DNA of 64,000 nt from NCBI RefSeq assembly GCF_000266945.1, contig NC_018025.1, forward strand, positions 3,414,001 through 3,478,000. The letters run 5' to 3'. The stretch's first letter is position 1; each line of letters starts with the position of its first letter. Positions 40,152-51,991 of this stretch are shown one piece after another. Under the pieces are notes generated by a model. That model saw only the letters and a list, made by a program, of their open reading frames with translations, ran no database searches and was not told where the DNA came from. This DNA is from Desulfomonile tiedjei DSM 6799. Lineage in GTDB: Bacteria > Desulfobacterota > Desulfomonilia > Desulfomonilales > Desulfomonilaceae. The position numbers were made by a program, and so were the translations under genes.

Positions 40152-40279
40152 AATATTGGGGAGGGACTTCTCATAATTCTGCCCTAAACGGGACTCTCCT
40201 CTCCCAAAGGCGCTAATTATTCCAATTGGTTGTCCCAAAGGGACTGAAGAAGGCCGATTCAATTTCACAGGAGCCTGCC

Positions 40280-41932
40280 ATGCTCACGCGAATCGTAATC
40301 GTGCTGGCAACGACAGCCGCCGTGGCAGCGAACCTTTTAGCAGACGCACTCTTGTTCATGGACCCGATCTCCTTCAGCGCAGAAGCAGCCGAATTGCACG
40401 ATACGAAACGGCTTCACCAGAAAGAACTCAGAACTACAGAGAGCGCCAAACCCCTCAAAAATTTCAAACATGCTGAAGTAAAGGCCCAGCAGGCCCTCAC
40501 TGAACAGCTTTCTCACGCGATAGAAGAGGAGAATATTGACGAAGTGAAGGCGCTGCTAGCCAAGGGCGCTGACGTAAATCGTTATGACGGAGAAGGCAAG
40601 CTGCCGCTTGAGAAAGCAGCCGGGAAAGGCTCGATGGCATTGGTCAGGATCCTCTGGCATAGCGGGGCTGACCCGAACATCAGTAACCGCGACGGGCAGA
40701 AGACTCTCAAGGCCGCTTTTATAGAAGCTGTGAGTAATTGCCACCAAGATGTAGCTCGATACTTCCTGAATATCGGCGTGAATGTAAATGCGGCCCGCCC
40801 GAAGGAAGGCACGTTATTTCAGCGTGCAGCAAGATGCTCACGGGAATTTGCGGAGTTCCTTCTTGAGAGGGGCGCAGCGGAGATTGACTTGAAGACAGCC
40901 AGACTTCCTCTGGAAAGGGATGCTAACCTCCGCACCAGGGATGAGAAAGGCTGGACATCTCTGCACGAGGCGGTCTGGGAGGGACATCTCGATAAAGCCG
41001 CTCTCTTGTTGGACAACAAGGCCGAACCTAATGCGGTTGACTCTTTGGGTTGGACCCCCCTGATTCTGGCTGCCTGGAAAGGCCAACCCGAGGCCGTGAA
41101 TCTCCTTATCTCGAGGGGCGCAGACATACGTGTAGAAGATGCCTTCGGTAAGACGGCCTTCGTGAGAGCGGTCGAGATGGGCCATCGTGACGCTGCCTTG
41201 CTGCTCCTCAACAAGGGAGCCGATGTCAATACTGCTGATGTTTCGAGTTGGACCCCTATTATGGCCGCTGTCACGCGGAAGGACCGAGAGATGGTAAAAT
41301 TGCTTCGGGAGCGTGGGGCCAAAATGACAGTCGCTGCCGCTGTCTTGCTGGAGGACGAACGAGAGATGCAGCGGCTTCTTAAAGAGAGTGCAAAGAAGGG
41401 CGTCCAGATTGCGGACGCCTCCATGGCTCTGCTTATTGCCGTGAGGAACCGCAGCGAAAAAGTGGTCAGGCACATCCTGGACAAGTGCCCTGAAATGGAC
41501 ATCAAGGAACCATGCTGCGACACCGCTCTTCTGTTCGCCATCGAGAATAAGTACTCAGGAATCGCCGAAATTCTTTTAGAGAAGGGAGCTAACCCTAACG
41601 CGGCAGACCATTGGCGAAAAACGGCTCTTCATTATGCGGTCTGGAAGGGCGATCTCAGGCTGATCCGCATGCTTCTCGAAAAGGGAGCCCACGTCAATGC
41701 GCAAACGATAGGGTGGGATGGGACCCCTCTCATGGGTGCTGTGGAGAGGGCGAATGTCGAGATAGTGAAGCTGCTGCTACAAAACGGCGCGAGTCTCCGC
41801 GTGGGCCCAAATAGCGATGATCTCTGGATAGCAGCCGAGAAAAGCGGAAACAAAGAAGTCCTGGAAATGCTCAAAGCGCATGCCCTGAAACACCCTGACC
41901 AGCCTCAGCCAACTTCGCGTGAAGGCCAGTGA
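40280..41932 (+). CDS. Exported ankyrin-repeat protein
   Basis: 550 residues from the ATG at 40280 with CAGGAG 6 bp upstream. The N-terminal hydrophobic segment (RIVIVLATTAAVAANLLADA) is a signal peptide or anchor. The rest is about twelve ankyrin repeats of 33 residues; clear units include GWTSLHEAVWEGHLDKAALL, GWTPLILAAWKGQPEAVNLL and KTALHYAVWKGDLRLIRMLL, with degenerate repeats between. No enzymatic domain. Probably a periplasmic protein-binding module. It begins about 130 bp after gatB and is followed 21 bp later by a second exported protein, so the two may form a unit. Confidence 0.85.
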   Translation: MLTRIVIVLATTAAVAANLLADALLFMDPISFSAEAAELHDTKRLHQKELRTTESAKPLKNFKHAEVKAQQALTEQLSHAIEEENIDEVKALLAKGADVNRYDGEGKLPLEKAAGKGSMALVRILWHSGADPNISNRDGQKTLKAAFIEAVSNCHQDVARYFLNIGVNVNAARPKEGTLFQRAARCSREFAEFLLERGAAEIDLKTARLPLERDANLRTRDEKGWTSLHEAVWEGHLDKAALLLDNKAEPNAVDSLGWTPLILAAWKGQPEAVNLLISRGADIRVEDAFGKTAFVRAVEMGHRDAALLLLNKGADVNTADVSSWTPIMAAVTRKDREMVKLLRERGAKMTVAAAVLLEDEREMQRLLKESAKKGVQIADASMALLIAVRNRSEKVVRHILDKCPEMDIKEPCCDTALLFAIENKYSGIAEILLEKGANPNAADHWRKTALHYAVWKGDLRLIRMLLEKGAHVNAQTIGWDGTPLMGAVERANVEIVKLLLQNGASLRVGPNSDDLWIAAEKSGNKEVLEMLKAHALKHPDQPQPTSREGQ

Positions 41933-41953: not shown

Positions 41954-42658
41954 GTGGAGGCCCGCTCCAGATTTCTTCTTGCCTTGCTTGTGACGTGGCT
42001 TGTATGCTCTCCGGCTACGCTCAAAGCGAATCCTGCACCGATTCCGATGGCAGGAGGAAGCGTTGCGGCACAGTCGCCCCATAAGACCGTTCGAATGGAT
42101 GCCGAAGACGTAACGATCCGGCTAGGGAGAGGCGCCTACACAGTGAATGCTGTATATCGCATGGTTAATACCGGAGACGCTACATCGGAATGGGTGGGCT
42201 TTCCGAGAGGGCTGGAAAGAGAACGGTGGAAGGGAACAGAATTTCCAGAGTTTATTCAGTTCCATGTGTGGATTGACGGCAAAAAGATTCGTTTTACGAA
42301 AGAAGGAAAGCAGTGGCTAGCAGCGCGGGTGACCTTCCCTGGGAACGCGACAACCATTATTCGCGTCATGTATGAGGCCCACTATTCGGATCGATACCTA
42401 TGGAAAGGCGTCCGCTACTTGGATTACATTGTGGGCACCGGTTCACTTTGGAAGGACAGCATCGCCAAGGCCGTCTTCACTGTGGATGCTTCCGAAACGG
42501 GCGGGACGAAGGGCTTGTACATCGAACTCAACGCTCCGCAGTGCCGCAAACTGAGTTCTGAACAGGTTGTCAGATTTGATGTAGAGGACTTCAAGCCTGA
42601 CCCATACGCCACCCTCCGCATTGAGTTCGGTAATCGGAGAAAGGTTATTATGAGATAA
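41954..42658 (+). CDS. Secreted DUF4424-like protein
   Basis: 234 residues. Signal peptide (RFLLALLVTWLVCSPATLKA). The mature protein opens with GGSVAAQS and MDAEDVTIRLGRGAYTVNAV and then FVNxGD-like VNTGDATSEWVGFPRG, a pattern resembling the DUF4424 family of periplasmic beta-sandwich proteins. No catalytic motif. GTG start at 41954 with GGGAGGT 5-6 bp upstream, 21 bp after the ankyrin gene, so co-transcribed. Family call tentative. Confidence 0.5.
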   Translation: MEARSRFLLALLVTWLVCSPATLKANPAPIPMAGGSVAAQSPHKTVRMDAEDVTIRLGRGAYTVNAVYRMVNTGDATSEWVGFPRGLERERWKGTEFPEFIQFHVWIDGKKIRFTKEGKQWLAARVTFPGNATTIIRVMYEAHYSDRYLWKGVRYLDYIVGTGSLWKDSIAKAVFTVDASETGGTKGLYIELNAPQCRKLSSEQVVRFDVEDFKPDPYATLRIEFGNRRKVIMR

Positions 42659-43029
42659 ATTGTGGGCCGGGACTCGTCAATCGACGACCTAGCGAGCATT
42701 CCTGTCCAGCAATTCTTCATGGCCTTTTGCCTCACCCCGAAATTCGTCCATTTCTCCCAGATCGATTTCCAGAATCAGCCTTTCTCTTTTCCCGCATCGC
42801 AATCTTGATAAGTTCCTCTCTAATACCTATAATTGAACCAAGCGATAAAACACGACAAAGGCGCTGAACTTTATTCAGCACTACTGAAATAATCTTACAT
42901 TTGTTAGCGAGCCTTATTCATATTCTAATCGTGCACCATATCAACGCTTGAGAAGCTCATTTTTTGTCTACACAACATGTCTGTTTCATTCAGAGGCTCG
43001 CATTTTTTTGCTCTCTGACAAAAAAGTAC

Positions 43030-43058
43030 TTGAAAGAGAAAGCACATTACAGGATAAT
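43030..43058 (+). promoter_or_regulatory. Sigma-70-type promoter of the mvhD-metVF-glt-like operon
   Basis: TTGAAA (43030-43035), exactly 17 bp, then GATAAT (43053-43058): five of six matches in each box. It lies 46 bp before the first start codon. The region upstream (42659-43029) contains no gene. Confidence 0.7.
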
Positions 43059-43104: not shown

Positions 43105-43545
43105 ATGGAGAAGAACCCCACTAAAATAGTAGTCTATCACTGTACAAACTTACGACTCTTTCATAATGGGAATCAGAAGAAGTTTGCACGGGAAAGGCCC
43201 GGCATCAATATCGTCGCTGTTCCATGCTCGGGCAAAGTCGAAGCGCATCATCTACTCAAAACACTGGCAAGCGGCGCGCAAGGCGTTATGGTCCTGGCCT
43301 GCGGAGAAAAAGCATGCCGGTACCTGGAGGGTTCCATGCGCTCCAAAAAACGGGTAGAATATGCGAAAGAATGGCTGGTGAAATTAGGAATCGAACCGGA
43401 GAGATTCCGATTCATACATGTCCCGCCGATGGATATTACGGCGCTGGACTCAGCCCTGAAGGAATTTGCCGCTGAATTGCAGTCCTTCGGAAACACACCT
43501 CCCATCGCAAAGAACCAGACTGAGTTGACTACTAATCCCAGATAA
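43105..43545 (+). CDS. MvhD-like hydrogenase/heterodisulfide-reductase iron-sulfur subunit
   Basis: 146 residues, the size of MvhD/FrhD delta subunits, which carry a 2Fe-2S cluster and pass electrons to HdrA. VAVPCSGKVEAHHLLKTLAS, VLACGEKACRYLEG and the KRVEYAKEWLVKLGIEPERF helix match the family. The N-terminal CxWCxY motif of the family is reduced here to a single Cys (VYHCTNLRLF). MetV and MetF follow, as in several acetogens and sulfate reducers where MvhD/HdrA link to MetFV. The ATG at 43105 gives the normal length, although the nearest purine-rich site (GGAAAGGG) is 17 bp upstream; the frame extends back to 42964 through the promoter and is not credible there. Confidence 0.8.
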   Translation: MEKNPTKIVVYHCTNLRLFHNGNQKKFARERPGINIVAVPCSGKVEAHHLLKTLASGAQGVMVLACGEKACRYLEGSMRSKKRVEYAKEWLVKLGIEPERFRFIHVPPMDITALDSALKEFAAELQSFGNTPPIAKNQTELTTNPR

Positions 43546-43611
43546 CGTGGCTCCTGCCTGAACACTCCGGAAAGAGAAAATCGGCCGGTCCAGCCAATAA
43601 GGAGGAAATCC

Positions 43612-44280
43612 GTGATCGTTGCGGAGCTGAAAGAAATACGTGAGATCAGGAACATGGTCGATCGATACGCGTCCATACTCGTTGTGGGATGCGATTCCTG
43701 CGTAGCCGAATGCGCTGCAGGCGGACATCGTGAAACCATGCTGCTGAGTGCAGCTCTCAAGTTGTCTTACAAGAAAGACAACCTGAACCCTGTGATAACA
43801 GAAGCGTGCCTGGATCGGCAGTGCGTGGATGACTTCATCGAAGGAATCGCTCACCTCGTGCCCGAGCATGACGCAATACTCTCTCTCGGGTGTGGCGCAG
43901 GCGTCCAGGCTCTCGCGAGAGTGTACGCCGACAAGCCCATTATCCCTGCCCTGAATACCCTCTTCATCGGTGAAACCGAAATGAGAGGCGTCTGGCAGGA
44001 AAACTGCCTTGGCTGCGGCCAATGCAAGCTCGGCTATTTCGGCGCAGTCTGTCCCGTTACCCGTTGTTCCAAGAAACTCATGAACGGCCCCTGCGGCGGA
44101 TCCAAAGGCGGAAAATGCGAAGTAAATCCTGAAATCCGCTGCGGTTGGGACATGATCATTCGCCGGCTCGAGGCGTTGGGTGAACTCGACAGACTTACCG
44201 AATATGTCCCGCCTCTGGACTGGTCCACATCACATTCCGGAGGGCCGCGCCGTATCGTCAGGGAGGATCAGAAACCGTGA
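43612..44280 (+). CDS. metV: MetV, zinc/iron-sulfur partner of methylene-tetrahydrofolate reductase
   Basis: 222 residues. This family (methylene-THF reductase C-terminal domain protein) forms a complex with MetF in acetogens and deltaproteobacteria and supplies electrons through Fe-S or zinc sites. Cys motifs: VVGCDSCVAEC near residue 25, ACLDRQC, LGCGAG, and CLGCGQCKLG followed by CPVTRC and GPCGGSKGGKCE. GTG start at 43612 with AGGAGG 7 bp upstream. It ends in a 4-bp GTGA overlap with metF, so the two are translationally coupled. Confidence 0.88.
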   Translation: MIVAELKEIREIRNMVDRYASILVVGCDSCVAECAAGGHRETMLLSAALKLSYKKDNLNPVITEACLDRQCVDDFIEGIAHLVPEHDAILSLGCGAGVQALARVYADKPIIPALNTLFIGETEMRGVWQENCLGCGQCKLGYFGAVCPVTRCSKKLMNGPCGGSKGGKCEVNPEIRCGWDMIIRRLEALGELDRLTEYVPPLDWSTSHSGGPRRIVREDQKP

Positions 44281-45200
44281 ACACCGAAAGCCGTTTGGAA
44301 AAAGTTCTCACTTCCGGGAATTTCGCAGTTACTGCAGAATGCGGACCGCCAAAAGGTTCCGATGTTGCCGCTCTGCAGGAGAAAGGCAAACACCTTCTCA
44401 ATTGCGTGGACGCAGTAAACGTTACGGACAACCAGACTGCTATCGTCAGGATGTCTTCCGTAGCTGCTTCTGCCATCCTGAAGAACATGGGACACGAACC
44501 GGTGCTCCAGATGGTAACACGCGATCGAAACCGGATTGCGCTTCAGAGCGATCTCTTCGGAGCATATGCGCTGGGTGTCAGGAATGTCCTGTGTCTCACG
44601 GGCGATCACCACTCTTTCGGTAATCAGAAAGAAACCGTCGGTGTTTTCGATCTCGATTCCATACAGCTCCTGAGAACTGTCCGGGATATGCGCGAACAGG
44701 GAACGATCATCGGAGGAGAAGCAATCCAGGTTCCACCGAAGATGTTTATCGGCGCAGCGGAAAACCCTTTTGCAGACCCGATTTCCTGGCGAGTCGTCCG
44801 CCTTGCAAAGAAAGCGGCAGCAGGAGCGGATTTCATCCAGACCCAATGCATCTTCAATGTGGACCGGTTTGCTGAATTCATGAAGCAAGCCCACGATCGG
44901 GGCATCACCGAGAAATTGTACGTGCTCGCTGGCATTACTCCTCTGAAGACAGTCGGAATGGCCAGGTACATGGCAAACAAGGTTGCCGGAATGGAGATTC
45001 CCGAGGAATTGATTTCCCGTATGGCCGGAGTTCCCAAAGAGAAGCAGGCCGAAGAAGGAATCAAAATTACCGTAGAGACGATTCAGAGAGTCCGCGAAAT
45101 CCCGGGAGTAGCCGGTATCCATCTTATGGCCATTGAATGGGAACACAAGGTCCCGGAAATCCTGAAAGCAGCCGGTCTTGACAAAAGGCCTGCTGCTTAG
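44277..45200 (+). CDS. metF: 5,10-methylene-tetrahydrofolate reductase
   Basis: 307 residues. MetF forms the flavin TIM barrel that reduces methylene-THF to methyl-THF, either for methionine or in the methyl branch of the Wood-Ljungdahl pathway. Recognisable parts: VTAECGPPKGSD with the catalytic Glu, VLCLTGDH, GADFIQTQCIFNV and YVLAGITPL. GTG start inside the metV stop. The coupling to metV and mvhD-like genes argues for the energy-metabolism role rather than only methionine synthesis. Confidence 0.93.
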   Translation: MNTESRLEKVLTSGNFAVTAECGPPKGSDVAALQEKGKHLLNCVDAVNVTDNQTAIVRMSSVAASAILKNMGHEPVLQMVTRDRNRIALQSDLFGAYALGVRNVLCLTGDHHSFGNQKETVGVFDLDSIQLLRTVRDMREQGTIIGGEAIQVPPKMFIGAAENPFADPISWRVVRLAKKAAAGADFIQTQCIFNVDRFAEFMKQAHDRGITEKLYVLAGITPLKTVGMARYMANKVAGMEIPEELISRMAGVPKEKQAEEGIKITVETIQRVREIPGVAGIHLMAIEWEHKVPEILKAAGLDKRPAA

Positions 45201-45229
45201 CTCATCGAGCGCTCCGAAAGAGATCGCAC

Positions 45230-46618
45230 ATGCCCAAAAAGTATCATATACACGTCCATGCCACACCGAATCGATTCCCGGTCGTGGGAAGATCCGGGAT
45301 AGTCGACTGGGGAGAAGGCTGTCTGAAATGTGCCGTCTGTGTGAAGCAGCGGTGCGTTTACGGTGTGTACAAATCCCGAACGTTTTCAACCGACATATTG
45401 TCCGACACCATCGACGAACTGTGCAAGAGCTGTTTTCGATGTGTGCAGGACTGCCCCAGGCGGTTGATTCATAAAACGATCAACCCCGAATGGGAGGCGC
45501 TCGGTGATGACGTTTACACGCCTCAGATAATCGCAGCAACCTGGGAACAGGCGAATACCGGCAAAATACCCGTATCCGGCGCAGGGTATGGGGGTCCCTT
45601 TTCCGGTCCCGGATTCGATTCCATGTGGACGGACATGAGTGAAATCGTCAGGCCCACACGAGACGGAATTCATGGCCGGGAATACATTTCCACGGTTGTG
45701 GACCTGGGAAGAAGACCCGGTTATTTGAAATTCGGCTCTGAAGGGAATCTGTTTGACGAATCACAGCCCTTCATTCGCATTCCCATTCCCCTGATTTTCG
45801 ATGTCCTCCCCTTTGGAGACCTGTCTCCCCAGGTCTGGAAGGCTGTTGGAGCAGCAGCGGTTGAATTGCAGACGCTTGCAATCGTTCCCGAAACAGTGGC
45901 CAGGGATCTGGCGGGCTTTGAGAACAACCTTGTTCCACTGCTTTCCGATGATCGTTTCGATGGAGAATGGGTCAAGAATTTCAGGATGGTCGAAATACCG
46001 GACGGAGATAAGGCGCTGGATCGGAAGGAAGCTCTAAAAGCGATCAAGCCGAACCTGCTCGTTTCCATCCGCATGCAGGCTTTGGCATCGAAAGAACAGG
46101 CGGCTCGTGTGGCCGACTATGCTCGAGCCGGCTTCGATCTCATCCATTTCGTTGCAGACGAGCGCGGGTATGAGCCGGGCGTCGAGGATGGTCTTCACAT
46201 CAAGGATGTCATCAGGTCGTTGCATTCGGCACTTCTCAGCGAGGGAATTCGGGACGAGGTCACGGTCATGAGCTCTGGCGGGGTCGCCATGGCCGAGCAC
46301 GTGATCAAGTCGCTCCTGTGCGGAGCGAACGTTGTCGGCGTAGATATTCCGCTGCTTATAGCGCTTGAATGCCGGGTGTGCCGAAATTGCCGTGAAGGCG
46401 GAGAATGCCCGGTGGATATTTCCGGCATCGATGCTCGCTGGGGCGTTCAGAGAATCATCAATCTCATCGGCGCCTGGCACAATCAGCTACTCGAGATGAT
46501 GGGAGCAATGGGTATTCGCGAGGCGCGGCGGCTGCGAGGCGAACAGGGCCGAGTTCTGTTTATGGAAGATCTCGAACGCGAAACGTTCGGCCGACTCTTT
46601 GCGCGAGATAACTCGTAA
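45230..46618 (+). CDS. Degenerate glutamate-synthase FMN-domain protein with N-terminal ferredoxin motifs
   Basis: 462 residues, related over its length to the next gene product. The N-terminus has Cys groups for two clusters (CLKCAVCVKQRC and CKSCFRCVQDC). The glutamate-synthase barrel follows, but the FMN/substrate loops are altered: PIPLIFDVLPFGDLSPQVW in place of the PxxGGGMSFGSIS loop, and no GSYGGTGAAP segment. The second phosphate-binding stretch (MSSGGVAMAEHVIKSLLCGA) and the Cys-rich loop (CRVCRNCREGGEC) are kept. It looks like a paralogue that has lost synthase activity and may be a scaffold or electron-transfer subunit. It starts 29 bp after metF. Confidence 0.7.
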   Translation: MPKKYHIHVHATPNRFPVVGRSGIVDWGEGCLKCAVCVKQRCVYGVYKSRTFSTDILSDTIDELCKSCFRCVQDCPRRLIHKTINPEWEALGDDVYTPQIIAATWEQANTGKIPVSGAGYGGPFSGPGFDSMWTDMSEIVRPTRDGIHGREYISTVVDLGRRPGYLKFGSEGNLFDESQPFIRIPIPLIFDVLPFGDLSPQVWKAVGAAAVELQTLAIVPETVARDLAGFENNLVPLLSDDRFDGEWVKNFRMVEIPDGDKALDRKEALKAIKPNLLVSIRMQALASKEQAARVADYARAGFDLIHFVADERGYEPGVEDGLHIKDVIRSLHSALLSEGIRDEVTVMSSGGVAMAEHVIKSLLCGANVVGVDIPLLIALECRVCRNCREGGECPVDISGIDARWGVQRIINLIGAWHNQLLEMMGAMGIREARRLRGEQGRVLFMEDLERETFGRLFARDNS

Positions 46619-46633
46619 TAAGGATCTGTTTTC

Positions 46634-48169
46634 ATGCATTACAAGAATATCTGGAGCGAAGTTCCTCCAGCAACGCCGATTCTGACTCCTTCACGATTCG
46701 GACGTGCAATCGGTAAATACACGGTCATGATCAGCGAGGCGTGCAATGACTGCCTCCGGTGCGTTTCGGTGTGCCCCGAAAAGGTGTTTGAAACACAGGG
46801 TGGAAAGATTGTTCCTCCTCACGATCACCGCTGTCTCGGGATCGAGTGTTCCAAAAAATCAAATCGCTGTATTGCGAATTGTCCGGTAAACGCCATCCGG
46901 GTGAACCTGAATCCGAGTGCCGAGGCTCTGGGTGATAAACGCTGGACTCCGGACCTTCTCATGAGCACTTGGCACATGGCGGAAACCGGGGAACTCCCCA
47001 AGAACGACCTGGAGTACAGAACCGGCGATTCAGGCGGAGGGTTCGACAAACTTCGCTTCCTTTTTCCCAAGAAGCTTCCCAGGCGTGATCTGGATAAACG
47101 GAATATCGATACATCCATCGATTTGAACCGCCGCAATGACGGCCGTCTCAAGATCACCATCCCGATTCCCGTGTACGGTGGCGGCATGTCCTTCGGATCT
47201 ATCAGTCAGATCACCATGTTGAGCCGAATTCGAGGATTCGCTGCATGGGGATCTTTCACCTGTACGGGTGAAGGCGGATATCCGGAAGCATTGTATCCTT
47301 TTGACGATCACATTATCACTCAGGTGGCTACGGGCCTTTTCGGCGTCAAAGAAGAGACGATACAGCGGGTAAAGATTGTAGAATTCAAATACGCTCAGGG
47401 CGCAAAGCCCGGTTTGGGCGGTCATTTGCTTGGCGACAAAGTCACCGAGGCCGTGGCTCGTATCCGTGAGACCGTGCCAGGGTCCTCATTGTTCAGCCCG
47501 TTTCCCTTCCATTCCGTGTACTCGGTTGAGGATCATAAGAAACACATTGACTGGATAAAGGCGATAAACAATCGCGGCCTGGTCTCGGTCAAGGTGTCCA
47601 CTCCTTCGGACGTGGACATGGTCGCAGTGGGTTCCTACTACGCAGGGGCTCACATAGTGCATCTGGACGGTTCGTACGGCGGAACCGGAGCAGCTCCGGA
47701 TGTGGCAAAGAAGAACATTGCCATGCCCATCGAGTACGCTATCCCCAAAGTCCACAATTTTCTCGTTACGGAAGGGGTTCGGGATCAGATTACGTTGATC
47801 GTCTCAGGCGGCCTTCGTACTGCGTACGACATTGCCAAAGCAATAGCGCTTGGAGCGGATGGTGTTGTCACAGGGACTTCAGATCTGGTGGCTCTGGAGT
47901 GTATCCGGTGCCATAACTGCGAGAGCGGTAGAGGCTGCGCCAGAGGCATAGCCACAACCGACTCGGAGCTGGTGGGATTGATGGAACTCGCGTGGGGAAC
48001 CCAGAGAATCATCAACATGCTGCATTGCTGGAAAAACCAGCTTCAAGAAATTCTGTTCCGCTTCGGAATGTCCAGCATTAGAGAACTGGTGGGACGCACT
48101 GATTTACTGGCCCATCTTGATTACAACTCGGATGTGCCGGATGACGATATCCGGCAGCCGCTCGCATGA
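46634..48169 (+). CDS. Glutamate-synthase FMN-domain protein with N-terminal ferredoxin motifs
   Basis: 511 residues. N-terminal ferredoxin-like Cys motifs (CNDCLRCVSVCPEKVF, and CLGIECSKKSNRCIANCP), then the complete FMN-binding TIM barrel of glutamate synthase: PVYGGGMSFGSIS, FTCTGEGGYPEALYP, LDGSYGGTGAAP, SGGLRTAYDIAKAIALGADG and the 3Fe-4S-type loop CIRCHNCESGRGC. This is the archaeal/ferredoxin-type GltB core that converts 2-oxoglutarate plus channelled ammonia to glutamate. It lies 15 bp after its degenerate paralogue and its stop overlaps the next start by 4 bp (ATGA), so the genes are translationally coupled. Confidence 0.82.
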   Translation: MHYKNIWSEVPPATPILTPSRFGRAIGKYTVMISEACNDCLRCVSVCPEKVFETQGGKIVPPHDHRCLGIECSKKSNRCIANCPVNAIRVNLNPSAEALGDKRWTPDLLMSTWHMAETGELPKNDLEYRTGDSGGGFDKLRFLFPKKLPRRDLDKRNIDTSIDLNRRNDGRLKITIPIPVYGGGMSFGSISQITMLSRIRGFAAWGSFTCTGEGGYPEALYPFDDHIITQVATGLFGVKEETIQRVKIVEFKYAQGAKPGLGGHLLGDKVTEAVARIRETVPGSSLFSPFPFHSVYSVEDHKKHIDWIKAINNRGLVSVKVSTPSDVDMVAVGSYYAGAHIVHLDGSYGGTGAAPDVAKKNIAMPIEYAIPKVHNFLVTEGVRDQITLIVSGGLRTAYDIAKAIALGADGVVTGTSDLVALECIRCHNCESGRGCARGIATTDSELVGLMELAWGTQRIINMLHCWKNQLQEILFRFGMSSIRELVGRTDLLAHLDYNSDVPDDDIRQPLA

Positions 48170-50835
48170 GGTTTGAGATGAAGTACGACGGGTCTTTTGC
48201 TGAAAAAATACTTGCCACCCGAATACGAGAATTCGGACGAGTCGATTTCTCCACGAATCTCAAGCGTGAGGACGAAGGCGGCTGCGGTGTCACCGGTTTC
48301 GCATGCAATATTCCTGTTGCGGGAAAACATATCTTCGAACCTTCCATACGCATGCACAACCGCGGAAACGGAAAAGGCGGCGGTATAGCCGCTGTCGGTT
48401 TCAGGCCGGAAATGCTCGGTGTTACGCGGGAAGTGCTGGATTCCCATTATATGCTGAATGTTGCACTGCTCGAGCCTAATTGCCTTCCCTTCCTGAAAGA
48501 GCAGTTTGTTACACCGTTTTTCAATGTGGCCAAGGAAGAGGTCATTGATCGTATGGCCGACTGGCGGGATCTTGAAGGCCTCGAGGTAAAACCGCCTGAC
48601 GTCTGGCGAGCTTTCGTACGAGTCAAACCGGAAATCCTGAAGGATTTTGTGCAGAAAAACGGATTCGAGAAGATGCCCGCGCGCTGGGCTGAAGATGAGT
48701 TTGTCAGCCGCAATTCCATTCATCTGAATCGCAGGTTTTACAGCTCGCTTGGAGAAAAGCAGGCGTTCGTGCTTTCCCATGGCAGAAACGTGATGATCCT
48801 CAAGATAGTCGGATACGCGGAAAACGTGGTCCGATACTATAAGCTTGACGATTTTGAGGCTCACGTGTGGATCGCCCATCAGCGCTATCCTACTCGAGGT
48901 CGCGTATGGCACCCCGGCGGCGCTCATCCGTTCACCGGTTTGAATGAAGCGCTGGTACATAACGGGGATTTCGCGAATTATCACGCCACCTGCGATTATC
49001 TGAAGCAACGAGGGCTCGAACCGCAGTTCATGACCGACACGGAAGTCAGTGTTATGCTGTTCGACCTTTGGAACAGAGTATACGGCTACCCTCTCGAAGT
49101 TATAATCGAAGCACTTGCACCTACGGGAGAATTGGACTTCGACCTGCTCTCCCCCGAGAAACAGGCACTTTACGACCAAGTTCAGCAGACCCATATCCAT
49201 GCCTCCCCGGACGGCCCCTGGTTTTTCATTATTGCCCGGAATATCCCGGAGTCCCAGACGTTTCAGTTGCTCGGCATAACGGATACCTCGATGCTGAGGC
49301 CGCAGGTTTTTGCATTGTATGACGGCGAAGTCCAGGTCGGTCTCATCTGTTCCGAAAAACAGGCTATTGACGCGACACTGCGTTCGTTGGCGGAATCCGA
49401 TCCTCGCTTCAGCACGATTGCCGACAAATACTGGAATGCTCGCGGCGGGTCGCGTTCCGACGGTGGAGCCTTCATGTTCAACGTGACGCCTGACGGCAAT
49501 GGAAGCAACCAGCTTTCCTGCTATGACAAATTCGGGCGAAAGGTCGAGATCGAGAGCCGGAAGCCCATGGATGTCACCCTGCCCGTCACCAAGCCCAACG
49601 ACTTCGAGTCCGAAATCCAACCATTGCTGAATGATACGTTTTCGGACAAGACCGGGAGGAAGACATTCGAGCTCTTTCAGGACCGGGCAGTGCACTTGGA
49701 TTACAATACCCTGCGGTACGCGATCAGGAATCTCGGACGAACGGCCCGCAAGCAAAAGCACTTGTTCCAGACCATCATCAATGCATTCACGTTGATGATA
49801 GACCGAAAATTCCCGCTTGGAGACAAGAAACGATCCGCTCTGGTGAGGATGGTCACCGAGGAGTTGAACGACACTTTCAGGTCGCTCCCCATGATCACCG
49901 AACCCATGAGCATCGGGAACTACGTGCTGGTGAACGCGGAAACCGGAAAGAATTTGCGGCCCCCTCTCGCGGTGGAACGTGCTCTGGTCATCGATGCCAA
50001 GGATTTCGAGCCTGAAGGCGACGAATGTGACGCTGTTATGATTGCGGATGCATATCGTCTCGGTTGGAGGAAATTCATCGTTTTCGATCTTCGCGGCCAA
50101 AGGTTCCACGGGTCGGGCTTCGGTTCGACTACCGCAGGCGTGCGGATGGATCTGTATGGAGCATCCGGAGATTACATGGCCAGCGGGATCGATGGCATGG
50201 AAATCCATGTGCACGGGAACGGGCAGGACCAGTTGGGTCAGATCATGAAGAGCGGACAGCTCGTGGTTCACGGCGATGTGGGCCAGTGTTTCATGTATGG
50301 CGCCAAAGGCGGCACCACCTTCGTGTTGGGTAACGCTGCAGGACGTCCTCTGATCAATGCTGCGGGACACCCGAGAGTCGTGATCAACGGGACTGCACTG
50401 GACTTTCTTGCAGAAAGCTTTATGGCTGGAGATCCCTTGAAAGGAGGCGGCTTCGTCATCGTGAACGGTCTTACCATGGATGAAGACGGAAATATCATTT
50501 TCCGGAACAGACCGTATCCGGGATCGAACCTTTTTTCACTCGCTTCCGGCGGTGCACTCTACATGCGGGATCCCAACCGGATGATCGTGGAAGAACAGCT
50601 CAACGGCGGTGCTTTATCGGAGCTTTCCGATGCGGACTGGAACCTGATCTATCCGTACCTGCTGGAAAATGAAAAGCATTTCGGCATCAAGGTGGAAGAA
50701 CTCCTGACTGTCGATGGAGTCGTCAGAAGTCCCAAGGAAGTGTATCGCAAAATCGAAGCAGTGCCTCTGGCGGTCCTCAGTAAGATCCCCAGCACAGACG
50801 ATTCAGTCTGGGCGGCAAATCCTCTCGCACCGTAG
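48166..50835 (+). CDS. Glutaminase (class II GATase) fused to GXGXG domain, without FMN domain
   Basis: 889 residues. Residues from Cys40 (GGCGVTGFACN) form a class II glutamine amidotransferase: MHNRGNGKGGG, HQRYPTRGRVWHPGGAHPF, NEALVHNGDFANY and MTDTEVS. If Cys40 is the nucleophile, a 39-residue propeptide would have to be removed, as in E. coli GltB. About 640-800 is the GXGXG helix domain of glutamate synthase (GSGFGSTTAGV, DGMEIHVHGNGQDQLGQI, MYGAKGGTTFVLGNAAGRP). The central and FMN domains that normally lie between are absent and are encoded by the two preceding genes. Start at 48166 overlaps the previous stop; Met5 is an alternative. Confidence 0.8.
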   Translation: MRFEMKYDGSFAEKILATRIREFGRVDFSTNLKREDEGGCGVTGFACNIPVAGKHIFEPSIRMHNRGNGKGGGIAAVGFRPEMLGVTREVLDSHYMLNVALLEPNCLPFLKEQFVTPFFNVAKEEVIDRMADWRDLEGLEVKPPDVWRAFVRVKPEILKDFVQKNGFEKMPARWAEDEFVSRNSIHLNRRFYSSLGEKQAFVLSHGRNVMILKIVGYAENVVRYYKLDDFEAHVWIAHQRYPTRGRVWHPGGAHPFTGLNEALVHNGDFANYHATCDYLKQRGLEPQFMTDTEVSVMLFDLWNRVYGYPLEVIIEALAPTGELDFDLLSPEKQALYDQVQQTHIHASPDGPWFFIIARNIPESQTFQLLGITDTSMLRPQVFALYDGEVQVGLICSEKQAIDATLRSLAESDPRFSTIADKYWNARGGSRSDGGAFMFNVTPDGNGSNQLSCYDKFGRKVEIESRKPMDVTLPVTKPNDFESEIQPLLNDTFSDKTGRKTFELFQDRAVHLDYNTLRYAIRNLGRTARKQKHLFQTIINAFTLMIDRKFPLGDKKRSALVRMVTEELNDTFRSLPMITEPMSIGNYVLVNAETGKNLRPPLAVERALVIDAKDFEPEGDECDAVMIADAYRLGWRKFIVFDLRGQRFHGSGFGSTTAGVRMDLYGASGDYMASGIDGMEIHVHGNGQDQLGQIMKSGQLVVHGDVGQCFMYGAKGGTTFVLGNAAGRPLINAAGHPRVVINGTALDFLAESFMAGDPLKGGGFVIVNGLTMDEDGNIIFRNRPYPGSNLFSLASGGALYMRDPNRMIVEEQLNGGALSELSDADWNLIYPYLLENEKHFGIKVEELLTVDGVVRSPKEVYRKIEAVPLAVLSKIPSTDDSVWAANPLAP

Positions 50836-50851
50836 ATAAGCTATCAAGAAG

Positions 50852-50895
50852 GGCCAAGGGAAACGTTTCTTGTACGAAGTCGTTTCCCCTTGGCC
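50852..50895 (+). terminator. Hairpin closing the glutamate-synthase-like operon
   Basis: GGCCAAGGGAAACG and CGTTTCCCCTTGGCC pair over 14 bp with a one-base bulge and a 15-base loop, 17 bp after the stop codon. No long T-run follows. Confidence 0.55.
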
Positions 50896-50917
50896 TGCCT
50901 TAAGTCTCTATATATCA

Positions 50918-51026
50918 GTTGCCAAAATTAGTGACCGATTGAAGATTAGGAATATTGGTAGGTGCCGTGCCTCCGTGCCGGCACATCTTCAATATGATCA
51001 ATGATATCGATAGAATGGACCGGCAG
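50918..51026. repeat. Composite dispersed repeat, left part
   Basis: TTGCCAAAATTAGTGACCGA, then GAATATTGGTAGGTGCCGTG, CTCCGTGCCGGCACATCTTC, AATGATATCGATAGAATGGA and CCGGCAG. It is nearly identical to 29992-30105 and 58191-58286. The continuation seen at 30.1 kb reappears only at about 52300, on the other side of the IS110 element. Confidence 0.75.
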
Positions 51027-51052: not shown

Positions 51053-51991
51053 CTACCTGGAAAGGCTGTTTTTCTTGAGCATTGCGTTTAGGATGACGAT
51101 CATCTTACGCATACAAGCCGTGATGGCAACCTTGAAAGGTTTTCCAGCCTCAATGAGGCGTTGATAGAAAGGCTTGATGACTACATTGGACGTTATGGCC
51201 GCGACTGCAGCCATATACAGGGTTGAGCGTACATCCGCCCGTCCACCCGAAATCTCGCGCTTGCCTTTCTTCTTTCCGCTGTCTTTGTTGAGAGGCGCCA
51301 GGCCGACGAGGCGACTGATTTCATGACGGCTGACATGTCCCAGTTCGGGCAGTTTTGCCATGAGCACTCTGGCAGTTATGGGGCCCACGCCTTTGAAGGT
51401 TCGGAGGAGTTCCTCTGTTTCACGCCACAGAGGCGATTTCCTGATAAGGTCATCGACATCTTTATCGATGTCTTCGATTTCCTTATCTAGGGCTGCTATG
51501 ACCGTTTGAATGCTGCGCTGCACGCGATTGGAACGGGCTCGATGGAGGCGATTCTTTTCTGATGCACGCAAATCAACAAGCTGCTTTCGACGTGTTACGA
51601 GTTCCTTGATTTGCTTTTCGTCCTCCGTTGGCAGCGGCTTCGGTATGGGCCTAACCGTTTGGGCAAAGCGTGCCAGCACATAAGCATCGATGGCGTCTGT
51701 CTTGGCGAGTTTTCCGATGCCTTTAGCAAAGTCCCGCACCTGACCAGGGTTGACGACAGCGATCGGCAGGCCGGCGAGACCTAACTGGGCCGCAACGGTT
51801 ATCTCGTAGCCTCCGGTGGCTTCCATCACGATTACCATGGGGGTCTCTGCGTGGAGGATCTCAATCAGCGAGTCGATGCCTTGAGTGTCATTCTTGACGG
51901 TGGTGTGCATGCCTTTTGGCAGCACATGCGCATCCAACTGATCTTTAGAGATATCTATGCCAACAAAAACTTCTTCATGCATGTGTAACAT
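51053..51991 (-). CDS. IS110-family transposase (DEDD recombinase)
   Basis: 312 residues, apparently intact. The N-terminal RuvC-like DEDD domain has Asp13 (VGIDISKD), Glu57 (VMEATGG), Asp99 and Asp102 (KTDAIDA). The C-terminal Transposase_20 domain has TFKGVGPITARVLMAKLPEL, RLVGLAPLNKDSGKKKGKRE and GRADVRSTLYMAA, which contains the conserved Ser. Family members act with a bridge RNA transcribed from the element's own non-coding end. Start may be Met1 at 51991 or Met4 at 51982 (GGGTGGG about 9 bp before the latter). Confidence 0.93.
   Translation of the reverse strand: MLHMHEEVFVGIDISKDQLDAHVLPKGMHTTVKNDTQGIDSLIEILHAETPMVIVMEATGGYEITVAAQLGLAGLPIAVVNPGQVRDFAKGIGKLAKTDAIDAYVLARFAQTVRPIPKPLPTEDEKQIKELVTRRKQLVDLRASEKNRLHRARSNRVQRSIQTVIAALDKEIEDIDKDVDDLIRKSPLWRETEELLRTFKGVGPITARVLMAKLPELGHVSRHEISRLVGLAPLNKDSGKKKGKREISGGRADVRSTLYMAAVAAITSNVVIKPFYQRLIEAGKPFKVAITACMRKMIVILNAMLKKNSLSR

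Follow-up and report, generated by a model that had tools for sequence, protein, structure and literature searches.

Layout of the operon

Why should genes of a methylene-tetrahydrofolate (methylene-THF) reductase share an operon with a glutamate synthase? The question is raised by a 64,000-nucleotide stretch of the sulfate-reducing bacterium Desulfomonile tiedjei DSM 6799 (NC_018025.1, positions 3,414,001 to 3,478,000), here called the window, in whose own numbering all coordinates of this locus are given. Six genes on the plus strand were confirmed in the order mvhD, metV, metF, gs2x, gltB2 and gltB1/3, followed by a hairpin:

mvhD, 43105-43545, +, FlpD/MvhD-type Fe-S electron-transfer subunit (PF02662, 7e-27)
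metV, 43612-44280, +, GTG start, zinc/Fe-S partner of MetF (MTHFR C-terminal, PF12225, 2e-35)
metF, 44277-45200, +, GTG start, methylene-THF reductase paralog (MTHFR, PF02219, 1.5e-41)
gs2x, 45230-46618, +, degenerate glutamate-synthase FMN barrel, proposed electron adaptor (Glu_synthase, PF01645, 1.5e-13)
gltB2, 46634-48169, +, ferredoxin head and catalytic glutamate-synthase FMN/[3Fe-4S] domain (PF01645, 1.5e-89)
gltB1/3, 48166-50835, +, class-II glutaminase fused to a GXGXG domain (GATase_6 PF13522 and PF01493)
strong hairpin, 50852-50902, +, operon end, without a T-run (fold of 50836-50930)

From mvhD to gltB1/3 the genes are spaced by 66 bp, a 4-bp overlap, 29 bp, 15 bp and a 4-bp overlap, as the initial annotation had described. 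The terminator-like hairpin which it had placed at the operon end was real and stable (50836-50930, -31 kcal/mol, z -4.3; 0 of 200 shuffles equally stable), but with no T-run behind it, it falls short of a textbook intrinsic terminator. The single strong promoter claimed for the operon was not borne out, because the search returned 8 sites against 9.0 ± 3.6 expected, i.e. no excess over chance. The best matches near the operon were located at 43030-43058 (10/12) and 42805-42833 (11/12). No promoter was demonstrated inside the operon, where the 29-bp gap between metF and gs2x leaves scant space. Directly behind the operon lies a 312-aa ORF on the minus strand (51053-51991), a putative IS110-type transposase. 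Upstream are an ankyrin-repeat protein (40226-41932) and an ORF with a weak DUF4424-like match (41954-42658).

Distribution of the gene cluster

Gene-order conservation in other Desulfobacterota had been proposed as a check of the linkage, which turned out to reach far past close relatives. The order mvhD-metV-metF-gs2x-gltB2-gltB1/3 was kept in 14/14 Desulfomonilaceae loci, as far as the contigs extend, and the same six-gene order occurred in about 16 further families of the phylum as well as on contigs assigned to other phyla. Of 395 genomes sampled from the phylum, 109 had gs2x, and at least 558 stretches with the gene were found in a species-level collection. Among the matches listed were bins labelled Omnitrophota, Armatimonadota, Hydrogenedentota, Chloroflexota, Spirochaetota, Nitrospirota, Poribacteria and Latescibacterota; as the matches are mostly metagenome bins, individual phylum labels are tentative. 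One-contig genomes also carry gs2x, e.g. G313, G359, G248 and G078. The loci compared comprised 63 with a complete mvhD-metV-metF-gs2x, mvhD being first, and 33 without metF or without both metV and metF (10 mvhD-metV-gs2x and 23 mvhD-gs2x). Seven had an FAD protein, and the remainder were variants or contig ends. Thus, gene content and conserved order uphold an operon in which MvhD-MetV-MetF is combined with a rearranged glutamate synthase.

The MvhD-MetV-MetF half

The metF product of the window retains Glu21, Asp110 and Gln190, catalytic residues whose roles we take to be those of E. coli MTHFR. With MetV and MetF side by side and the folate-site Glu, Asp and Gln in place the pair has the features of a MetVF-type methylene-THF reductase. 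The three residues were retained in 81/84 linked MetV-bearing MetFs and in 44/44 unlinked ones. Thus, the notion that linked MetF is a mere NADH flavoprotein was ruled out for the main type; it may still apply to MetV-less copies and two f39 genomes. Nearly all MetV-less linked MetFs are without the folate Asp, so not all of the cluster family carries out folate chemistry. In the near-complete f39 genomes (L123, L127) the catalytic residues of the linked MetF are lost and CdhC is also missing. A requirement for CODH/ACS was rejected, because the association was only weak (p 0.03) and CdhC was absent from 7 of the 37 genomes with linked MetVF.

In a phylogenetic tree 78 linked MetFs formed one clade (SH-aLRT 92), with the smaller linked groups (f17/f90/Abyssobacteria, f39 and the MetV-less types) outside it. 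Cluster-bearing genomes usually hold additional MetF copies; the unlinked MetFs sampled were mostly of the Moorella type, HdrA-MvhD-MetV-MetF, and in the tree the HdrA-linked copies of these genomes stood apart from the main linked clade. By sequence and phylogeny, then, the linked metF is a dedicated methylene-THF reductase paralog. The operon of the window contains no hdr genes and in this respect does not encode an Hdr-type (Moorella) MTHFR complex. A second MvhD-MetV-MetF set of the same genome (L139, C1:6445899-6446810) has no hdr genes beside it either.

Linked MvhDs mostly have C-x-x-(L/S) at the position of the CxxC in the free copy of the D. tiedjei genome. Among the free mvhD copies L223-L262, many reading frames lack the expected CxxC upstream of the CSGR motif, and an in-frame UGA (selenocysteine) is a possible explanation.

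The synthase core

Residues 184-504 of the gltB2 product aligned with the synthase domain of A. brasilense GltS (1ea0 857-1180). The loops AQGAKPG and YS(I/V)ED were kept, all three positions of the [3Fe-4S] cysteines (1ea0 1102/1108/1113) were filled, and the synthase motifs were conserved in 121 sequences. gltB2 thus contains the FMN synthase domain with [3Fe-4S] cysteines that defines a glutamate synthase (GOGAT), while gltB1/3 contains the class-II glutaminase with its catalytic Cys and glutamine-site motifs: GGCGV, HQR(Y/F)PT, HNGD and TDTE were conserved in nearly all of 98 sequences. The catalytic Cys lies at about residue 40, so a leader would probably need to be removed. The initial annotation had read the products of gs2x, gltB2 and gltB1/3 as a ferredoxin-type amidotransferase-like complex. 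Ferredoxin heads were indeed found on the products starting at 45230 and 46634; yet both are synthase-type FMN barrels, one of them degenerate, and the product starting at 48166 is an intact glutaminase carrier with conserved class-II motifs.

The operon has no GltD-like gene and is in this respect not an NADPH-dependent GltBD. Searching the own genome (one 6.50-Mb contig and a 27-kb contig) with gltB2 gave, besides gltB2 itself, only gs2x and no other synthase FMN domain; nor was a canonical GltB found there at E<=1e-150. Elsewhere in the genome is a gene of the glutamate dehydrogenase family, so glutamate may also be made without GOGAT. In the phylum, canonical GltB was detected in 67/395 genomes, and only 9 genomes had it together with gs2x where 18.5 would be expected (p 0.004).

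Recurrent neighbours of the cluster were GlnA, PII, Amt, GlnD, a sigma-54 activator with a GAF domain, and CarAB. GlnA, PII, Amt or GlnD lay within 5 kb of 47 of 114 non-Desulfomonilaceae cluster loci, but of none of 42 unlinked metF loci and none of the 14 Desulfomonilaceae clusters. Sigma-54-like sites were found upstream of 27/112 clusters compared with 96/2240 (4.3%) random stretches; none was found upstream of the window's mvhD. From this genome context elsewhere, the amination reaction proposed earlier can be narrowed to ammonia assimilation by GOGAT.

gs2x, a second barrel

gs2x matched the synthase family in its second half only, and inspection of the alignment by eye revealed neither the glutamine nor the 2-oxoglutarate loops. 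On this alignment the protein is another, duplicated synthase barrel whose substrate half has been lost. Its AlphaFold model (mean pLDDT 84, low at 116-148) had glutamate synthases as the nearest of the solved folds compared (Z 25, rmsd 3.2-3.6, 311-316 residues). The protein carries two 4-Cys ferredoxin motifs, C31-C42 and C65-C75, whose 8 cysteines were all invariant in the aligned homologues, and a third, C-terminal group at C381/384/387/393. A 24-residue motif, MWTDMSEIVRPTRDGIHGREYIST, was nearly invariant across phyla.

The C-terminal CCCC was kept in 128/129 loci that have MvhD upstream, and 6/7 loci where a GlcD/GlcF-like protein (FAD_binding_4 and Fer4) replaces MvhD lack it; both are raw counts that ignore kinship. 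Of the sequence evidence, this covariation argues most strongly that the C-terminal cluster of gs2x takes electrons from the MvhD side. At four loci (L110, L112, L114 and L132) gs2x and gltB2 were fused in frame, and in one family a single 2528-aa ORF (L133) combines GlcD/F-like, gs2x, gltB2 and gltB1/3 parts. Apparent fusions of MetF with gs2x and of MetV with MetF, suggested by long ORFs, were discarded since the reading frames differ. In a minority of clusters, from Syntrophorhabdaceae-type, Omnitrophota, Armatimonadota, Dehalococcoidia and Hydrogenedentota loci, HdrC-HdrB-HdrA flank the genes; the HdrA adjoining the cluster at L086 has a GltD-like domain of NAD(P)H type.

Proposed electron path and alternatives

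The conserved operon suggests a new route for electron flow linking one-carbon metabolism with nitrogen assimilation. We consider it probable, with some reserve, that the cluster encodes a modular glutamate synthase in which gs2x is the electron adaptor and MvhD-MetVF one of several input modules. GltB1/3 would hydrolyse glutamine and hand ammonia to GltB2, whose FMN would reduce 2-iminoglutarate to glutamate. With Fe-S sites at both ends, gs2x would collect electrons from the exchangeable input module, and in the window they would run from methyl-THF via the MetF flavin, MetV, MvhD and gs2x to GltB2 and glutamate. Methyl-THF oxidation would thereby pay for ammonia assimilation. We infer that MvhD-MetVF and the synthase form a physical complex with such an electron path. 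That methyl-THF is the donor is a tentative proposal, to which we give somewhat less than even credence; electrons might also flow the opposite way, or come from a donor shared with an Hdr complex or ferredoxin. With similar caution we put forward a folate-driven GOGAT having methyl-THF as direct donor, in a family whose inputs are swapped at gs2x between MvhD-MetVF, MvhD/Hdr and a 2-hydroxyacid-dehydrogenase-like FAD protein.

The 2-oxoglutarate/glutamate couple lies near -120 mV. For the methylene/methyl-THF couple -200 mV has been reported (PMC8760232), which makes the overall passage of electrons from methyl-THF to 2-iminoglutarate downhill. Single steps may be slightly uphill, as the FMN (about -240 mV) and the [3Fe-4S] cluster (-280 mV) of A. 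brasilense GltS (PMC8097209) are slightly below the methyl-THF potential. The GlcD-like input, if lactate-oxidising, would donate at roughly the methyl-THF potential. Purified MetVF oxidised methyl-THF with viologen and showed no NAD(P)H oxidation, and MetVF, MvhD and Hdr proteins interacted in pulldowns (PMC9430772).

These data bear on a rather unlikely alternative, close to the initial proposal that methyl-THF formation and the synthase share low-potential electrons: a ferredoxin or an HdrA-type complex would feed MvhD/gs2x, which serves both methylene-THF reduction by MetVF and the synthase, possibly with bifurcation. The Hdr genes at some clusters, the HdrA with its GltD-like domain and the MvhD-HdrA interaction in known systems (PMC9430772) agree with such a hub, whereas neither HdrA nor a ferredoxin reductase is encoded near most linked loci, among them that of the window. 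Given a couple of about -200 mV and no oxidation of NADH by MetVF, a low-potential donor common to both is no better an explanation than feeding of the synthase by methyl-THF.

It is improbable that one transcript merely co-regulates methyl and glutamate supply with no exchange of electrons. No in-frame fusion of metF to the glt genes was found among the loci compared, as this explanation would have it; against it stand the dedicated MetF clade, the dependence of the gs2x Cys cluster on MvhD and the alternative dehydrogenase fused at the equivalent place. Hardly credible is a product other than glutamate, e.g. from an N-methylglutamate-synthase-like or another amidotransferase reaction, for which the split and rearranged domains, the folate neighbour and scores under the curated glutamate-synthase cut-offs might speak. 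The synthase loops and [3Fe-4S] cysteines are intact, though, the GlnA/PII/Amt/GlnD context points to nitrogen assimilation, no other synthase FMN domain was found in the own genome, and the cluster is partly complementary to canonical GltB.

Relation to known systems

Glutamate synthase is an entry point for nitrogen into biomass; NAD(P)H, ferredoxin and perhaps F420 are the donors known for it. If the folate-driven modular synthase is real, folate one-carbon chemistry would be a new class of donor for a widespread glutamate synthase of anaerobes. It would explain ammonia assimilation in organisms without canonical GltBD, and methyl-THF oxidation would gain an outlet independent of NAD reduction. 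Genomes can be screened for the system with the gs2x adaptor as a marker.

The initial annotation knew of no described system with this gene set, and likewise we found no MetVF- or MvhD-linked glutamate synthase in the open-licence literature. Common to GltBD/Fd-GltS and the operon are the glutaminase, the FMN synthase domain with its [3Fe-4S] site and the GXGXG domain, and the catalytic motifs align. In the operon, however, the domains are split and reordered over two genes, the synthase gene has a ferredoxin head, the degenerate barrel gs2x is added, GltD is lacking and MvhD-MetVF lies upstream. The order MvhD-MetV-MetF is shared with the HdrBCA-MvhD-MetVF of Moorella/Sporomusa, but gs2x and the synthase genes replace the Hdr genes and MetF belongs to a separate clade. 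Going by their description, the F420-dependent glutamate synthase clusters of ANME (FrhB10; PMC9012536) likewise have a non-canonical electron-input subunit and differ in using FrhB/F420 instead of MvhD-MetVF. For HdrL of Desulfobacterium autotrophicum, an Hdr/glutamate-synthase-like fusion, the sections of the report available to us mention no MetVF or synthase core alongside (PMC2702500); as described there it resembles the GltD-like plus HdrA protein at L086. A further Glu_synthase-family protein of about 525 aa occurs near the cluster at L078:13677-15251 and at eight other loci from several families.
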